Positions 3,726 through 10,384 of a DNA stretch of 64,000 bases are shown here, piece by piece. The stretch covers positions 372,001 to 436,000 of the forward strand of contig NZ_RQIT01000001.1 in NCBI RefSeq assembly GCF_003837805.1, read 5' to 3'. Source of the stretch: Bradyrhizobium sp. RP6. Lineage in GTDB: Bacteria; Pseudomonadota; Alphaproteobacteria; Rhizobiales; Xanthobacteraceae. Below the pieces are notes generated by a model, which was not told where the DNA came from, did not search any database, and saw only the letters and a list, made by a program, of their open reading frames with translations. The position numbers and the translations under genes were made by a program. The stretch's first letter is position 1, and every line of letters starts with the position of its first letter.

Positions 3726-5011
3726 CCACCGACAAACAGAAGAAAGAAGCCATCGAGACCTGCCTGCGCGAGGGCTTCGTGCCGTATCGGTCCGAGCATC
3801 GCGGCAAGGGCTCTGCCGTTCTCGAAGCCACGCGCCGCCTGAAGCTGAACAAGAACACGCTGACGGATTGGGTGCGGGCGCAAGACTCCCTCGCCAATCG
3901 CGGCGAGAAGAACTTCCTGCCCAACTGGTCGCTGTACGTCGCGCCGGGCGACAAGAAGCTGCCCTCTCGCCGGGAGGTCCACGATAGCGCCTACTGGCGC
4001 ACGCGCTACAACGCGGCCGAGAAGGAACTGGCGCACATCGAAAAGCTTCTCGAAGAAGTCGGCGGCATCCGTTCGCTCGACATCCCGGCCCCGGAATGGT
4101 TGCTGAAGGCCAGCACGTCCAACCGCGCGCGTTCGGTCATGTCGATGCTCTTCACCGATCTGCACATGGGCGAGGTCGTCGATCCCGATGAAATCCTCGG
4201 GCTCAACGCCTTCAACCCGCACATCGCCGAGCAGCGCGCCAAGAAGTTCTTCCAAGCCGCATGCGAGATCGGGCCGCGCTGGGCGTCCGACACCAAGCTC
4301 GAAGGGTTGCTGCTCAACCTGGGCGGCGATCTGGTTTCCGGCGACATCCACGAAGAGCTTCGGATCACGAACGCTCTGACCTCGCATGAGCAGGTCCGTA
4401 TGGTGGTCAAGATTCTGGTCGCCGGTATCAAGCTTCTGCTCAAGGCCTATCGCCGCATCCACGTTACGTCGGTGCCCGGCAATCATGCCCGCACCACGTT
4501 CAAGCCGACCGCGAAGCTCTATGCGAAGCTGTCCTATGACACGCTTATCGCTCAGATGGTCGCAGACGCCTTTTCGGGCGATCCTCGCGTGACTTTCCAG
4601 ATCACCGTGGCAACGGACGCTGTGATCCCGGTGCTCGGCCGCACGGCCTTCCTGACGCACGGCGACAAGATGGGCACCGGCGGCGGCCAGGGCTTTGCCG
4701 GGCCGATGCTCCCCATCGTGCGCGGCACCAAGAAGGTCGAGGCGCAGCAAGCTCGCGCGGGGCGGCGGCCGGACATCATTATGCACGGCCACTATCACCA
4801 CTCGGGCAACCCCGGCAACGTGTTCTCGAACGGCGCGTTCCCCGGCTACAGCGAATACGGCAACGGCCTGCGCGCCGCGTTGGAGCCGCCGCAGCAATGG
4901 CTCTTCCTCATTCATGAGACGTGGGGCGTGCGCGAGCGGTGCGAGATCAAGCTGGAAACGCCCGCTGCCTTCCCGCGTCTGGCGAGCGCTATGCCCAAGG
5001 AGATGGCGTGA
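3722..5011 (+). CDS. Phage metallophosphoesterase with N-terminal helix-turn-helix
   Basis: This 429-residue protein carries a calcineurin-like metallophosphoesterase core. The five signature blocks appear in order: TDLHMGE (D-x-H), NLGGDLVSGD (GGD), VPGNHAR (GNH), THGDK and MHGHYHH (GHxH). These supply the ligands of a two-metal site, as in MRE11/SbcD nucleases and related phosphatases. Before it, residues about 5-50 (FVPYRSEHRGKG, ATRRLKLNKNTLTDWVRAQ) look like a helix-turn-helix. The start is GTG, overlapping the previous stop. No SbcC partner is visible in the window. It may be a phage nuclease or phosphatase; the substrate cannot be read from sequence. Confidence 0.8.
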   Translation: MTTDKQKKEAIETCLREGFVPYRSEHRGKGSAVLEATRRLKLNKNTLTDWVRAQDSLANRGEKNFLPNWSLYVAPGDKKLPSRREVHDSAYWRTRYNAAEKELAHIEKLLEEVGGIRSLDIPAPEWLLKASTSNRARSVMSMLFTDLHMGEVVDPDEILGLNAFNPHIAEQRAKKFFQAACEIGPRWASDTKLEGLLLNLGGDLVSGDIHEELRITNALTSHEQVRMVVKILVAGIKLLLKAYRRIHVTSVPGNHARTTFKPTAKLYAKLSYDTLIAQMVADAFSGDPRVTFQITVATDAVIPVLGRTAFLTHGDKMGTGGGQGFAGPMLPIVRGTKKVEAQQARAGRRPDIIMHGHYHHSGNPGNVFSNGAFPGYSEYGNGLRAALEPPQQWLFLIHETWGVRERCEIKLETPAAFPRLASAMPKEMA

Positions 5012-5100
5012 TGCTGTTGTTGCTCGCATTCATCTTTTGCCTCTGCGAAGAATCGGAGTGGGCCGCGTTCATGCTCTTCCTGTATTGGGTGCTGCTGTGA
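5011..5100 (+). CDS. Tiny hydrophobic protein (29 residues), holin candidate
   Basis: ATG at 5011 shares its base with the stop of the metallophosphoesterase gene, and its TGA overlaps the GTG of the next gene. The reading frame gives MLLLLAFIFCLCEESEWAAF then MLFLYWVLL. These are two hydrophobic stretches separated by an acidic EESEW, enough for a hairpin or a single bent helix. The coupling on both sides argues for a real gene despite its size. A membrane role is inferred from composition only, and holin is one possibility among several. Confidence 0.5.
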   Translation: MLLLLAFIFCLCEESEWAAFMLFLYWVLL

Positions 5101-5315
5101 AGGTCGCCTGGGACTACGTCTGGAACATCCTGATCGCCATCGATCAGCTTGCCAACGCGGTTCTCGGCGGCTGGCATGACGAGACCATTTCGAGCCGCCT
5201 GGGCAAGTCGATCCTGAAGGGCGGCTGGGCATCGAAGGTGCCGTGGCCGCGCTGGCTTTATGATCACTTCATCGAGTCCGTCGAGCCCGACGAAGATTGG
5301 AATATGGGCTACTGA
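5097..5315 (+). CDS. Small phage protein of unknown function (72 residues)
   Basis: GTG at 5097 overlaps the preceding stop (GTGA). The product begins MKVAWDYVWNILIAIDQLAN and ends FIESVEPDEDWNMGY. It is Trp-rich, with a central basic patch (SRLGKSILKGGWASKVPWPRW) and an acidic end. This resembles the small conserved proteins found near phage structural genes that share the AVLGGWHDETIS type of segment, but I cannot name a family. The tight gene spacing and the ordered hydrophobic N-terminus support it being expressed with its neighbours. Confidence 0.65.
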   Translation: MKVAWDYVWNILIAIDQLANAVLGGWHDETISSRLGKSILKGGWASKVPWPRWLYDHFIESVEPDEDWNMGY

Positions 5316-5820: not shown

Positions 5821-7080
5821 ATGGTCGATCTTAGTGCAACGGGGTACGCGAGGCTGGCTCGTCTGCGGACCATCATGGCCGCAGCGCTCAACAACAACCC
5901 CTATGAGCGGCCTGCAATGGCGACGCCGCCTACCATCACGGTTAGTTCGGGGTCGGACGCGACTCTGAAGTTTTTCACGGTCGCGGCGGCGGGTGCGCTT
6001 ACCTCTGCGGCGCTCAATCAGATCGCTTGGTACGGTGGGGTGCCGACTCCCATCCTGACTCAGTATGTCGCCATGCCGGTTTCGAGTGTGCTGCCCTCGA
6101 CCAACGGCAACATCGGCTCGGGTTTGGCCGATAAGAATCAGTGGGCGAGTGCAATCGAGTTCCTGACGGATAGCGACAAGGTGCAGTTCGGCTTCTACAC
6201 GTCGAGCGCCGTCAAGCATATGTTTCAGGTTGACGGGCAGTATGTCGATTTCGCTGGCACGCCGGGTAACGCGGCGAACAACGCGGACACGTTCTTCCTT
6301 CTGACGTTTGCGTCGCGCAAGGTCCGCCGCATTCGTGCTCTCATTCCCTCGCTTCCCTCGAAGGGGCCGTCGCTGATCAAGTCGATCCGTGTCGCTCAGA
6401 CGGCTTCGATTTGGAAGCCGAATATGTCGGAAGTGATCCGCTGCGGTTGGCTCGCCGATAGCTATGGCGAGGGAACCAATAGCGCGGCCTCGATCTATCC
6501 GGTCCCCAACGCGGCATGGCCGGTGCTGACTTGCGAGTTGCTTGGCATCCGCGATTGTCGTCAGTTAGCCGTGGGATCGACGGGCTACATCTCGACGGCT
6601 GGGGGTACGCGATCAAAGCTGCGCGACCAGTTGCCCAACTACGCCAACCAAGCGCCGTTCGATCTCTTCGTGATCTCCCACGGCTACAACGACGCATCGC
6701 AAACCCCGGCCGCGATTACCGCTGAAGCGCTGCTCGCCTACAAGGCTTTGCGGGCAGCGTATCCGAAGACGCCGATTGTTGTGCTCGGTTGTCAGGCCGG
6801 TGCTGGCGGCCCGAGCGCGGCACAGATCGCGACCGATGGCGCGATTGGTGCGGCAGTTGCTCAGTTCGCTGATCCGCTGTGCGCCTTCGCTCCGGTGTCC
6901 ACGGCCACGTCTTCGTGGCTCAATGGCACGGGCGCAATCGGCGCTACCAACGGCACGGGCAATGCTGACTTCTATGTCGATCCCGACAAGGCACATCCGG
7001 CGCTTCCCGGCGCAGAGTTCCTGTCCTTCATGTCGGCGTCGGCGATCAGAAGCTCGATCTTCGCAATGGCGGGCGTCTAG
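5821..7080 (+). CDS. SGNH/GDSL-type hydrolase tail protein
   Basis: The 419-residue product has an N-terminal beta-rich region (residues 1-190, TITVSSGSDATLKFFTVAAA), then an SGNH hydrolase domain. Block I is GWLADSYGEG with the nucleophile Ser. Block II is AVGSTGY. Block III is SHGYND with the Asn. The closing block is DPDKAHPALPGAEF with the Asp/His pair. Such domains in phage tips are usually O-deacetylases or esterases acting on host surface polysaccharide. The N-terminal part probably attaches it to the tail. Its stop TAG overlaps the stop of the opposing gene within CTAG. The substrate is unknown. Confidence 0.8.
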   Translation: MVDLSATGYARLARLRTIMAAALNNNPYERPAMATPPTITVSSGSDATLKFFTVAAAGALTSAALNQIAWYGGVPTPILTQYVAMPVSSVLPSTNGNIGSGLADKNQWASAIEFLTDSDKVQFGFYTSSAVKHMFQVDGQYVDFAGTPGNAANNADTFFLLTFASRKVRRIRALIPSLPSKGPSLIKSIRVAQTASIWKPNMSEVIRCGWLADSYGEGTNSAASIYPVPNAAWPVLTCELLGIRDCRQLAVGSTGYISTAGGTRSKLRDQLPNYANQAPFDLFVISHGYNDASQTPAAITAEALLAYKALRAAYPKTPIVVLGCQAGAGGPSAAQIATDGAIGAAVAQFADPLCAFAPVSTATSSWLNGTGAIGATNGTGNADFYVDPDKAHPALPGAEFLSFMSASAIRSSIFAMAGV

Positions 7081-7412
7081 TCGATAGCGTAGACGTTCTC
7101 CTGCGTCGTCCACACGCAGGACTTCTCTCCCTTCGGCCGAATGCACGCGACCAAGGCGTTGGGCACTTCAACGACGAAGATGTCCATGCCCTTGCCGTAT
7201 GACTTGCACCCTTCGGCCGCGCCCCTCGCGAGCCCCGCTTGAAAGTCCGTCTTCGCAGTCTTCAACACGGCCTGCAAACCTTCGAGCGTAGGGCAGGCCA
7301 GGGCGGTTGTGTGCAACACCCCGGATTGTCCAACTTCCAGGCGCTTCGCCGCGTGCGCAGAGGCGGTTGCGGCAAGCAGGGCGGCGGCAATGAGGGCTAC
7401 TCGAATGGGCAT
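7077..7412 (-). CDS. Secreted small protein of unknown function (prophage accessory gene)
   Basis: A 111-residue protein on the opposite strand to the tail genes. It has a clear signal peptide (MPIRVALIAAALLAATASAH, cleavage after AHA), so the mature product is about 88 residues. Four cysteines in the mature part (ALACPTLEG, EGCKSYG, ALVACIRP, KSCVWT) could form two disulphides. A strong GGAGG lies about seven bases before the ATG. The convergent stop codons share CTAG with the SGNH hydrolase gene. A lone antisense, exported gene at the end of the tail operon is typical of a moron, that is, a prophage gene that benefits the lysogen. No function is recognisable. Confidence 0.7.
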   Translation of the reverse strand: MPIRVALIAAALLAATASAHAAKRLEVGQSGVLHTTALACPTLEGLQAVLKTAKTDFQAGLARGAAEGCKSYGKGMDIFVVEVPNALVACIRPKGEKSCVWTTQENVYAID

Positions 7413-7780
7413 GTCACGGGCCTCCTAATCGCTACTGTAAGCCATCGCCGTTGAGGCGGACGACTTCCGCAACTGACTTGGAGCACCGTCATGAAGAAGT
7501 AAACCCCTTCTCTCATGTCACCTTTTTCGAGCCCTTAATCCAAGACCCGAAATTGTTCTGACGGCGGCTTTCGTACCCGCCCGGCAACGCAACAGAGTCG
7601 CTACCGTTCCGACGACCGCGATCCGCAAAAATGCCTTGAGAACAGCTAGGGAGCCGTGGGCGACACGGCTTTAAGAGACCCGCCGGGGAGACCCGCGCGG
7701 GTCTCATTGTGTTTAGACGGTGCCTTAACCACGAAACCTAGCGGCTGGGACTCGCGTTGCTTCGGCGGTAGGATCGAGAC
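7413..7780. other. Intergenic region between two prophage transcription units
   Basis: About 370 bases with no convincing gene. It holds the ribosome-binding site of the minus-strand secreted protein at its left edge and the AGGA site of the zinc-ribbon gene at its right edge. In between is the palindrome at 7688-7705. Promoters for both flanking genes are expected here but I cannot point to a convincing consensus. Confidence 0.5.
7688..7705. terminator. Perfect 18-bp palindrome, possible terminator
   Basis: GAGACCCGCGCGGGTCTC can form a 7-bp GC-rich stem with a four-base loop. A half copy, GAGACCCG, lies 14 bases upstream. The stem is followed on the plus strand by ATTGTGTTT, a weak T-rich tail. 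It could terminate transcription or be a protein-binding site; the first is slightly favoured. Confidence 0.4.
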
Positions 7781-8245
7781 ATGGCCCGCATCATCCGCAT
7801 GATGCCGCTCTCGGGCGGCGACCGTAAGCACTACGCGCGCGAGCTTGCCCGCACCGAGCGGCTGCACGCTGATCTTGAGGCGCGGATGCTCGCCGCATAT
7901 GAGGTCGCCCACCGGCTGGCCTGCGAAGAGTGGAACGCGCGGCGCTTCCTGGGCGGCGAGGTTGATCCCTCGCCGACCATCGGCGCGGCGATCTCGGCGG
8001 GCTTCACGCTGCTCGAAGTAAAATGCCCCGCCTGCCGCCACGTCGAGCGCGTGCCGTTGCCCGATCTCGTCTGGTCACGGGAGCGGCCGATCCACTCGCT
8101 TGCGGACGTGCTGTTCTGCCGACGCTGCCGGGTCGATAGCGGCGCAACGCGGCGACCGACGCTGATCTGCCTAGTCGCGCCGGGCACGGGCTCAGAGCCG
8201 CCTAAAACTCGCGCGAGAAGGCAGGGTGGGCGCGGTTCTTCTTGA
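7781..8245 (+). CDS. Zinc-ribbon-like small protein (154 residues), prophage accessory
   Basis: The N-terminal half is helical and basic (SGGDRKHYARELARTERLHA). Two CxxC knuckles follow, CPACRH (about residue 85) and CRRCRV (about residue 113), which together can bind one zinc. A helix-plus-ribbon plan suggests DNA or RNA binding, but no family name is certain. The ATG follows AGGA at good spacing. The last 15 codons lie antisense to a ligase-gene remnant on the minus strand (8201-8240). The C-terminus KTRARRQGGRGSS is thus partly the complement of that coding sequence, so the original 3' end overlapped a convergent ligase gene. Confidence 0.65.
   Translation: MARIIRMMPLSGGDRKHYARELARTERLHADLEARMLAAYEVAHRLACEEWNARRFLGGEVDPSPTIGAAISAGFTLLEVKCPACRHVERVPLPDLVWSRERPIHSLADVLFCRRCRVDSGATRRPTLICLVAPGTGSEPPKTRARRQGGRGSS
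8201..8240 (-). pseudogene. 3'-end remnant of a second ligase gene
   Basis: On the minus strand, codons read K-N-R-A-H-P-A-F-S-R-E-F-stop. The intact ligase downstream ends K-N-R-A-H-P-A-Y-S-R-E-F-stop. The two share an identical 20-mer (GCAGGGTGGGCGCGGTTCTT on the plus strand, at 8221-8240 and 9625-9644). Outside it they differ mainly at synonymous positions (GCC/GCA, CGC/AGG, TTT/TTC), as expected for diverged coding sequence. Upstream of about 8241 the similarity stops, so only the tail remains. Confidence 0.7.
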
Positions 8246-8264
8246 TCGGCCTTCGGGGCGGCTC

Positions 8265-9548
8265 CTAGGGCCTTCCGGCAGTATTTTCATGCCGACCCAG
8301 GTCGATGCCCTGGGCTTCCGCGCGCAACCGCACGTATCCTCGCATGATGTTTTCGCGGAACGCAAACCACCCGGAGCCGAATCCTGCCACGATTCTGGCG
8401 TGAGAATCCTTGCGCATTGCAAGATAGCGTTGATTCAACTGTTCTCGCGATAGCATCGACCTGCCTGTGCGCTTCATCATGATCCATTTGTACGACTGGT
8501 CGTAAATGTCGCTGATCTGACGTTTGTCGGAAGTGCTGTCGGCGAGCGCCCAAAGCGCCTCTTCATAGTCTTCTGTGTTTCGCGTTTTGCGAGTGGCTTT
8601 CTCATAGGCAGCCTGTAAGGCCGCTTCTGTTCTCTGAAGAGCGCCCGTGATGCCGATTTTGTAGTGATCGGCATTTGATCTCGTCACTTCGTCGGGGTCA
8701 TCGAACATCCCCCAAAAAAGACACTCTCCAATGAGATGAACGTAGTGAGGAAAGCCATCGCTCACTTGCCCGATGCGGATCAGCGCTTCCTCTTGAATTT
8801 CGATGTTGAGCTTCTTTGCGACGACCGTCAGAATTTTCCACAGATCGGAATAGTTCAAGCGCTTAAGCTCGATTGTCTCTAGGATGCGGCCTGCCGATGG
8901 ATGTGTCTGTAAAAGCTCAGACACGTCATGCATGATGCCGCAGAAGATAAAACGCACGTCTGCGTTTAGCTCAGGAATATTGCGGATGAACTCCGCAAAC
9001 TTCTCTCGCTCTGCTTGGCTCTCGATTCTCTCCATCTCATCCACGATGATGATCGTGGTGTTCGCTCTTTTCGCGGCGACGTACCGAATGATGTCAAGAG
9101 CCTCATTGAGCGATTGCGGCGCGGTTATATTGGAAGAAGCTTGCGTGCCATCGGACACGCCAATTCCGCCAAATCCGCCGGGCAAACTAAAGTTGAAGCC
9201 GCCCCCGGAAGCGGCTTTCTCAAGTCTCTGCTCGACGGGGATTAGTGCGTTGCCGATTGCTTGGATCGTTTGCCCGAAGTTGTTTGTGCGCCCGCACATG
9301 ACGTAGATCGGCAGGTTTTCTACGCCGGTATGCATGAAGGCGGTCGTGAGGGCGAGAGAAGTCTTACCGACGCCCCGATCACCGTAAATAAAAATCTGGC
9401 GGCCGGGCGAGCTAAATGCCCGGTCGATGGTGGTCAGGGTTCGCTCGCGCCCAAATAGGCGTTCTGGTGTCTTAATCGAATCCGAAGGCGTAAGGTTTTC
9501 GGAGAGAATGAGCTTCAAGTCTGCGTCGGTGATGCCGCGAATAGCCAT
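8265..9548 (-). CDS. AAA/STAND-like P-loop ATPase, prophage cargo
   Basis: A 427-residue single P-loop protein. Walker A is YGDRGVGKTS (residues 55-64), Walker B is IIIVDEME (about 166-173), and a sensor-1-like strand FIFCGIMHD lies near 200. A Gly-rich insertion (SGGGFNFSLPGGFGGIG, about 114-130) lies between them. The C-terminal part (EDYEEALWALADSTSDKRQI and on) looks winged-helix-like. The fold resembles ORC/Cdc6-type or STAND ATPases, often used in defence or replication control. By eye the gene is clearly more AT-rich than its neighbours, and it lies alone between two ligase 3' ends. No effector domain is obvious, so a defence role is a hypothesis. Confidence 0.75.
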   Translation of the reverse strand: MAIRGITDADLKLILSENLTPSDSIKTPERLFGRERTLTTIDRAFSSPGRQIFIYGDRGVGKTSLALTTAFMHTGVENLPIYVMCGRTNNFGQTIQAIGNALIPVEQRLEKAASGGGFNFSLPGGFGGIGVSDGTQASSNITAPQSLNEALDIIRYVAAKRANTTIIIVDEMERIESQAEREKFAEFIRNIPELNADVRFIFCGIMHDVSELLQTHPSAGRILETIELKRLNYSDLWKILTVVAKKLNIEIQEEALIRIGQVSDGFPHYVHLIGECLFWGMFDDPDEVTRSNADHYKIGITGALQRTEAALQAAYEKATRKTRNTEDYEEALWALADSTSDKRQISDIYDQSYKWIMMKRTGRSMLSREQLNQRYLAMRKDSHARIVAGFGSGWFAFRENIMRGYVRLRAEAQGIDLGRHENTAGRP

Positions 9549-9591
9549 CGGAACCTCGATTCGCGGCGATTGTAGCGGGTTCCATAGGGTT

Positions 9592-9606
9592 GGCTACCCG
9601 GTAGCC
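9592..9606. terminator. Short perfect palindrome at the ligase 3' end
   Basis: GGCTACC-C-GGTAGCC, two 7-base arms around one base, abuts the ligase stop codon (complement of 9606-9608). Read on the minus strand it follows the ligase gene and precedes the ATPase start by about 45 bases. It may attenuate read-through or mark the junction of the inserted segment. No T-tract follows. Confidence 0.35.
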
Positions 9607-9644
9607 TAGAACTCCCTCGAATATGCAGGGTGGGCGCGGTTCTT
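9605..9644 (-). repeat. Ligase-tail repeat, intact copy
   Basis: These 40 bases pair with 8201-8240 as a diverged direct repeat bracketing the ATPase gene. Here the sequence is the functional 3' end of the ligase gene. The shared part is the 20-mer at 9625-9644, and the rest matches at roughly three positions in four. Confidence 0.7.
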
Positions 9645-10193
9645 GATCTTGCGCCAATCGCATGTGCGGGGCCGGTAGCGGGTCTCGCGGCGCTTCGAGA
9701 CGATGCCTTCGAGCCCGGCCTTGCACGCCGCCTTGAACAGGCCGGGTCCTAGCTCGCCCGGTTGGAACGGGGCGGCGAAGATCGCGGCCGTGGGATCGGG
9801 GAGAAGCCGACCCAGGCGATCCTTGCGCTCGAATAGGGGGAGTTCCCGAAGGTCGTCACCGTCGAGCGCCAAGAGGTCGAAGGCGTAGAGTTGGGCTTCC
9901 GAGTTCCGCCGGTTGCCGTGGAGGGCGTCGAAGTCTGCGTCGCCGGTCTCGGTCAGGATCACGATCTCGCCGTCGAGCACGAAGCGCTTGGCGCGGAGCT
10001 TCAGGGCGGCCTCGACGATCAGCGGGTAGCGCCACGTCCAATCGAGGCCAGACTTGGACCGTAGCCGCACGTTGTCGTCGTCGCGTTCGAGAAGACCGCG
10101 ATAGCCGTCGAGCTTGATTTCGTGTATCCATTCGGGACCGGCCGGTGCGGCCGTCACGGCCTTCGGCGAGCAATACTCGATACGCTTTTGCAT
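9606..10193 (-). CDS. Minimal ATP-dependent DNA ligase (nucleotidyltransferase domain only)
   Basis: A 195-residue protein with the core motifs of LigD-type ATP-dependent ligases. Motif I is EIKLDGYRG with the adenylated Lys at about residue 27. Motif III is FVLDGEIVIL (about 71-80) and a YAFDLLALDGDD block follows. Motif IV is LEGIVSKRRETRYRP, and motif V is DWRKIKNRAHP. The chain ends there, so the usual C-terminal OB-fold of about 100 residues is absent. It could need a partner, act weakly on nicks, or be a degraded ligase kept by the phage. It is the last prophage gene before the presumed attR. Confidence 0.75.
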   Translation of the reverse strand: MQKRIEYCSPKAVTAAPAGPEWIHEIKLDGYRGLLERDDDNVRLRSKSGLDWTWRYPLIVEAALKLRAKRFVLDGEIVILTETGDADFDALHGNRRNSEAQLYAFDLLALDGDDLRELPLFERKDRLGRLLPDPTAAIFAAPFQPGELGPGLFKAACKAGLEGIVSKRRETRYRPRTCDWRKIKNRAHPAYSREF

Positions 10194-10270
10194 GTGGCGG
10201 ATGTAGGCACCGGCAGGACGGAAATGGAGTCCCGGCGCACCGGAATCGGGGTGCGCTACTGTGATACAAA

Positions 10271-10288: not shown

Positions 10289-10351
10289 ACAGGGCGAGGT
10301 CTTCAGGCGAAATTACCGAATGAAATCAATAGGTAATAGCCCAACTTGGTT

Positions 10352-10367
10352 CCCTCCGAGCGCACCA
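10352..10367 (+). other. tRNA 3'-end-like sequence, candidate attR
   Basis: CCCTCCGAGCGCACCA fits exactly the last 16 bases of a tRNA gene: 5 bases of T-stem (CCCTC), 7 of acceptor stem (CGAGCGC), a discriminator A and CCA. No 5' half, D-arm or anticodon arm lies upstream, so it is not a whole gene. A prophage integrated into a tRNA leaves such a partial copy at its distal end, and the phage genes do lie to its left. An acceptor stem beginning GCGCTCG would fit some tRNA-Arg genes, but the species is uncertain. Confidence 0.5.
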
Positions 10368-10384
10368 AGGGCGATAAGCCTCTG

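Follow-up and report, generated by a model that had tools for sequence, protein, structure and literature searches.

An Orc1/Cdc6-like ATPase gene between two copies of a convergent-gene overlap at the right end of a Bradyrhizobium prophage

The window analysed here, a stretch of 64,000 nucleotides of Bradyrhizobium DNA, carries the right end of a prophage (contig C11), in which a gene for an ATPase lies between a zinc-ribbon gene and the gene of a small DNA ligase. Judged from the alignments, the two ligase-tail copies that flank the ATPase gene are the overlap of these two convergent genes, present twice around a 1.36-kb insert. Our preferred reading, held with confidence just above even, is that the ATPase gene came to this slot at the attR end of a tRNA-Leu prophage with an arm of ligase plus cargo, which recombined at the ligase end and left the old ligase tail stranded. 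Prophage defence hotspots are known, but the entry of cargo between neighbouring genes without breakage is seldom visible. In the window the junction is resolved to the single base, as the complete convergent-gene overlap is found twice.

Results

The coordinates of the features are collected in Table 1. The two ligase-tail copies are identical at 35 of 42 positions and have a 20-mer in common. On the ligase strand, the left copy translates as KNRAHPAFSREF-stop and the right copy as KNRAHPAYSREF-stop. Their local alignment scores 52, while the best other 150-base piece of the 64-kb window, with the ligase end and the left copy excluded, scores 27; a chance repeat was therefore rejected. A first-pass annotation had reported two ligase 3' ends bracketing the ATPase gene, and both are present. 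The boundaries that it gave, 8201-8240 and 9605-9644, located both copies, which are slightly wider (Table 1). Each copy consists of the entire 41-bp overlap of the convergent genes and about 2 bp per side. The left copy had been described as a ligase remnant that has lost the rest of its gene. It does hold an antisense ligase tail, but it is not a mere relic, because its plus strand encodes the last residues and the stop codon of the zinc-ribbon gene. The zinc-ribbon protein ends in ..EPPKTRARRQGGRGSS in the window and in ..EPPKTRARRQGGRGS in locus L067. A simple transposon target duplication was also rejected, since the repeat is 45-48 bp long, diverged and equal to the gene overlap.

Table 1 Features of the prophage right end in the window.
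Feature	Position	Strand	Remarks
Terminator-like hairpin, left anchor of variable region	7688..7705	+	Homology to the PDC-S42 and one PDC-M48B prophage ends near 7715
Zinc-ribbon gene	7781..8245	+	154 aa, two CxxC pairs by eye; convergent to ligase
Left copy of 41-bp overlap	about 8200-8247 (3 extra bases)		Antisense ligase tail and sense zinc-ribbon end
Inserted cargo segment	8248..9603	-	Absent from L067, L106, L107 (alignments)
Orc1/Cdc6-like AAA+ ATPase	8265..9548	-	427 aa; mostly helical C-terminal region, probably winged-helix
Promoter-like site	9569..9596	-	TAGCCA-16-TACAAT
Right copy of 41-bp overlap	about 9604-9648		Intact ligase's own 3' end
Small ATP-dependent DNA ligase	9606..10193	-	195 aa; profile match to adenylation domain only
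attR core	10351..10368	+	18-bp copy of tRNA-Leu(GAG) 3' end; partner G000:C11:320614-320631

Three related loci hold no cargo: L067 (IMG/VR 2841949485; L008 is the same contig), L106 (G052) and L107 (G046). In all three, the zinc-ribbon and ligase genes are convergent and overlap by exactly 41 bp, which is the arrangement into which the segment had been proposed to be exchanged, and the left tail is seen in its original setting. L107 has only this gene pair in common with the window, its left side being another phage. Window segments 7079-8240 and 9604-10232 align to L067 7296-8460 and 8420-9047, respectively, and both copies map to one overlap. The left copy is identical to the overlaps of L067, L106 and L107 at 41/42, 39/42 and 38/42 positions, and to the right copy at 35/42; the right copy matches each of the three overlaps at 34-35 of 42. 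In the window, the zinc-ribbon and ligase genes each have a separate 3' end, and the cargo fits between them.

The ATPase gene is full-length and the sole long gene of the insert, as seen from the open reading frames. A composition foreign to the phage core is supported by the GC and codon checks that had been proposed earlier: the gene has the lowest GC of 12 genes tested, 0.537 against 0.615-0.690 for the other 11, and the worst codon fit among them. The GC between the two copies is 0.543. Searches of Pfam, PHROGs, PADLOC and NCBIfam matched nothing to the zinc-ribbon protein within the limits applied. Directly at the ligase stop codon there is a 15-base hairpin-like sequence (9592-9606), which shares bases with the promoter-like site.

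Related prophages were compared at their right ends, which number eight distinct ends after near-identical records were merged (L072 and L073, identical over 2.6 kb; L075 and L143, 99.95% identical over 2.0 kb). One end carries the ATPase, three have no cargo, three have PADLOC defence candidates and one is missing the ligase; this census is small, and the PDC models are computational candidates. In L068, the same slot holds a PDC-M48B metallo-beta-lactamase-fold gene (E 8.4e-103) and a 260-aa gene; the junction is at the ligase stop, and a broken ligase tail is all that remains of the ligase. L075/L143 carry PDC-M48B (E 2.1e-123 in L143) and a 230-aa, weakly Csx27-like gene (E 1.2e-4). L072, the only one of L072, L073 and L074 covered by the PADLOC scan, carries PDC-S42 (E 6.8e-42), a Vsr-like gene and PDC-M06B (E 1.4e-26). 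In L075/L143 and in L072 = L073 the cargo starts at 7715, past the terminator-like hairpin, and the zinc-ribbon and ligase genes are absent. The scan found 2 such hairpins against 3.3 in shuffles, and since this count is no higher than in shuffles, the anchor role of the hairpin rests on its conservation. G037 has the zinc-ribbon gene, and no ligase was found there. L074 has only the last 0.7 kb in common with the L072 cargo, after which its contig ends. Outside the count of eight stand G113 and G045 (= L061), which have the first part of the ligase only and no zinc-ribbon or 111-aa gene, and G154, in which the relative of the zinc-ribbon gene reaches only about 50% identity. In L109 (G113) the ligase match covers the first 117 residues (88%; 7404-7754) and in L110 (G045) the first 100 (74%; 8063-8362), each followed by other sequence.

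These comparisons support, in a small sample, the view of the slot at the ligase end as a prophage cargo hot spot. The variable site anticipated by the first-pass annotation is seen in relatives that do not all carry the ATPase with the same flanks: the slot is empty in L067, L106 and L107, is occupied by PDC-M48B and its companion gene in L068, and has given way, along with both flanking genes, to other cargo in L075/L143 and L072. An IMG/VR scan with the ATPase, whose reach is close relatives, matched the window's own prophage only, so the ATPase-filled slot has a single known instance.

The 3' end of tRNA-Leu(GAG) marks the end of the prophage, and a 17-mer of the attR repeat is also found in L067, G113 (L109) and G012 (L143). 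L067 has about 1 kb extra between the ligase and attR. Past the ligase of L106 and L107, at a distance of about 0.5-0.6 kb, there is a tRNA-Val gene; these two loci have the tRNA-Val neighbourhood in common, and their ligases are 98% identical. Between L067 and L106, the zinc-ribbon body is 86.8% identical and the ligase body 73.6%. These identities and the tRNA-Val neighbourhood suggest that the ligase moves as a unit with the attachment end and that exchange takes place at the overlap or close to it.

An incoming arm, composed of a ligase and its cargo, would accordingly be pictured as recombining at the ligase end and replacing the old arm. The ligase would be replaced in the same event in which the ATPase entered, and the old ligase tail would stay stranded on the far side of the cargo, where it may have been retained because it supplies the zinc-ribbon gene with its last codons and stop. 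The ligase body of the window shows no crossover: it is about 86% identical to that of L067, with 68-94% in 50-bp windows and no trend, and no breakpoint inside it was found by this comparison. This leaves arm replacement in the window weaker and makes plain insertion a serious rival. Here the resident ligase would never have been replaced; the ATPase segment would have been inserted, the 41-bp overlap copied once through end repair or a replication error, and the copies would then have drifted. The zinc-ribbon body, 83% identical to that of L067, is similar in this respect to the ligase body. Moreover, the window ligase ends in SREF as do the overlapping relatives, unlike most other ligases, and the divergence of the right copy is as expected after release from double coding. 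The ligase arms, however, differ between L067- and L106-type loci that have the zinc-ribbon gene in common, and the stranded tails of other loci, described below, mostly point away from a simple copying of the neighbouring ligase. Overall, we regard plain insertion as unlikely, though well short of negligible.

Stranded tails were sought in 103 ligase entries (94 non-redundant), each of which extends 1 kb or more downstream of the ligase. For this, 80 ligase places were fetched; partial, lower-scoring and contig-end ones were left out, and whole second ligases were set aside from the counts. Six distinct loci have isolated pieces of the ligase 3' third downstream of the ligase and on its strand: G089 (two pieces), G068, G051, G113, G020 and the window. 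Pieces of the 5' third occur in two loci (G264, G112), and of the middle third in none of the 103 entries. For five of the seven stranded tails the best-matching ligase is not the neighbour, which ranks 16, 22, 7, 54 and, for the window, 4; in G068 and G113 the neighbour is the best match. The window's left tail cannot separate replacement from insertion, because zinc-ribbon coding conserves it by any route, which makes arm exchange somewhat less probable and plain insertion somewhat more so. Without this tail, four of six still match another ligase better than the neighbour, which is at odds with plain insertion. A stricter threshold with pooled queries (94 non-redundant loci) kept 3' thirds in four loci (G089, G051, G020 and a marginal single match, G027) against 5' thirds in two, and short tails, the window's among them, dropped out; the excess of stranded tails is therefore modest. 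The pattern fits the replacement of ligase-cargo arms with the old tail left behind, and the ligase end, previously suggested as a recombination site, appears as a recurring junction. L160 (G089) has a single intact ligase followed by two stranded tails in a row, with different small genes in the intervals (4234-5293). In G051 (L164), a small gene similar to that of G089 lies beside the stranded tail.

A further route, in which the cargo would have entered as a small integrative element with the ligase 3' end for its attachment site and would have brought a replacement gene end, in the manner of tRNA-targeting elements, is very improbable. The direct repeat with both gene ends intact would suit such an element, as would the serine recombinases beside distant ATPase homologues in G001 and G194 and the tRNA gene near that of G025. 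Yet the 1.36-kb insert has no recombinase, and the stretches in common between ligases and stranded tails vary in length elsewhere (42-140 bp) and have no common core.

The ATPase has Walker A residues G59, G61, K62 and S64 and Walker B residues D170 and E171, which are invariant in 35 sequences. Its fold matches Orc1/Cdc6, with Orc1 alignments that span model residues 3-414, the C-terminal domain being assessed only as part of this span; families missing from the fold list were not taken as excluded. Residues 15-418 match phrog_6841 of PHROGs (E 5.5e-63), a family without assigned function. The search of defence profiles that had been suggested earlier gave no PADLOC family that fits the ATPase well. 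Four families were returned, with weak and partial matches, the best being mad8 (E 3.2e-5) and PDC-S27 (E 4.4e-5), and there was no full-length match to a curated PADLOC defence model, nothing near the NCBIfam cut-off and no solved structure by sequence search at E 0.01. Relatives of 81-88% identity are found in metagenomes.

Twelve genomes of the genus have a relative of the ATPase at E 1e-10, and gene surroundings were taken from nine of them (the window's own and eight others; the weak matches G028, G177 and G260 were omitted), together with six further surroundings from family and order samples. TIR, Mrr and SLATT genes are among the direct neighbours of distant homologues. The ATPase genes of the window, G099 and G199 have no adjoining effector gene, and the downstream side of that of G816 is beyond the contig. 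Neighbours of the homologues in G342 (531 aa), G689 (239 aa) and two plasmids (237 and 242 aa) matched no family above the cut-off. In L132 (G194; 6236-9334) the homologue is bordered by a TIR gene on one side and by a gene for a serine recombinase on the other. L133 (G205) resembles it, and the G205 neighbour looks like the G194 TIR protein; this arrangement is possibly a mobile two-gene system.

The ATPase of the window is predicted to be a candidate anti-phage gene, on account of the neighbours of its distant homologues and the cargo of other prophages at the right end. It may act as an ATP-driven, DNA-contacting switch of the Orc1/Cdc6 type against the DNA of incoming phages or its replication. 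In distant relatives, the ATPase would be the sensor for TIR, Mrr or SLATT effectors, whereas that of the window appears to act without a partner gene. In the lysogen, it could be expressed from the cargo's own putative promoter. A promoter scan of the cargo gave 1 site against 0.8 in shuffles, and a call on consensus alone was dropped. The -10 side of this site lies in a stretch that is conserved before the G099 homologue (score 33, against at most 22 in 1564 other locus windows). Whatever its entry route, the ATPase might instead be a phage helper, Orc1/Cdc6-like or TnsC/MuB-like, for replication, maintenance or integration of the prophage. We find this role doubtful: the gene was found in none of the other seven right ends, of which three have PADLOC defence candidates, and distant homologues have the effector-type neighbours named above.

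Discussion

The slot appears to be of a known kind, a prophage cargo hotspot (cf. PMC9122126), with a seam that we have not found described in the one literature search made on it. The P2-like and P4-like antiviral hotspots of E. coli are reported as regions of about 1-5 kb with high turnover, flanked by two conserved phage or satellite genes (PMC9122126). Like them, the slot of the window is small, variable and located between conserved phage genes. Unlike them, as they are outlined in that report, its bordering genes overlap at their 3' ends, the overlap is doubled and ligase tails mark the seam; the comparison covers eight right ends at the level of sequence. A literature search worded on convergent, overlapping genes, insertion and prophage gave no description of a seam at a doubled convergent-gene overlap.

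In cluster N mycobacteriophages, a central variable region has genes implicated in prophage-mediated defence, and the AAA-ATPase gene 30 of Kevin1 is located in this region (PMC6544188, PMC10700106). Kevin1 gp30 is a distant homologue of the window ATPase (23.5% over 77%). The phage family and the site are different, and these accounts, as far as they treat gp30, hold no report of a test. Conflict systems with AAA+ ATPases of the Orc1/Cdc6 clade, SspC included, are described with the ATPase coupled or fused to REase, TIR or STAND partners (PMC10853773). The window ATPase is likewise of Orc/Cdc6 type, but has no adjoining partner and no REase domain match, and none of the PADLOC families returned is Ssp. 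It would be a one-gene candidate from a clade that is linked to defence largely by gene neighbourhood (PMC10853773). The phiLM21-like rhizobial prophages of S. meliloti carry phage-defence candidates, PDC-S45 and PDC-M32 (PMC12429752). These are also PADLOC candidates, but other ones in another prophage family, and their description there mentions no ligase seam.

A broader proposal, which we put forward tentatively and consider rather unlikely in full, is that ligase 3' ends form a recombination seam in Bradyrhizobium prophages. The tails would be scars of past swaps, the doubled overlap would host cargo with both genes kept, and the cargo would be a new anti-phage ATPase from the Orc1/Cdc6 clade, acting as a one-gene system. 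If true, stranded ligase tails would be a fossil record of cargo exchange in these prophages. They could also serve as a simple sequence signature of exchange slots, and hence of candidate defence genes, in rhizobial prophages.

A GDSL-like gene of the window (5821-7080) had no tblastn match in L067, L068, L072-L075, L106 or L143, where most surrounding genes match; going by these matches, its site is a second variable slot in the prophage family. In L023, a second, different ligase (43%; 3751-4410) lies at the place of the phosphoesterase and GDSL genes of the window.
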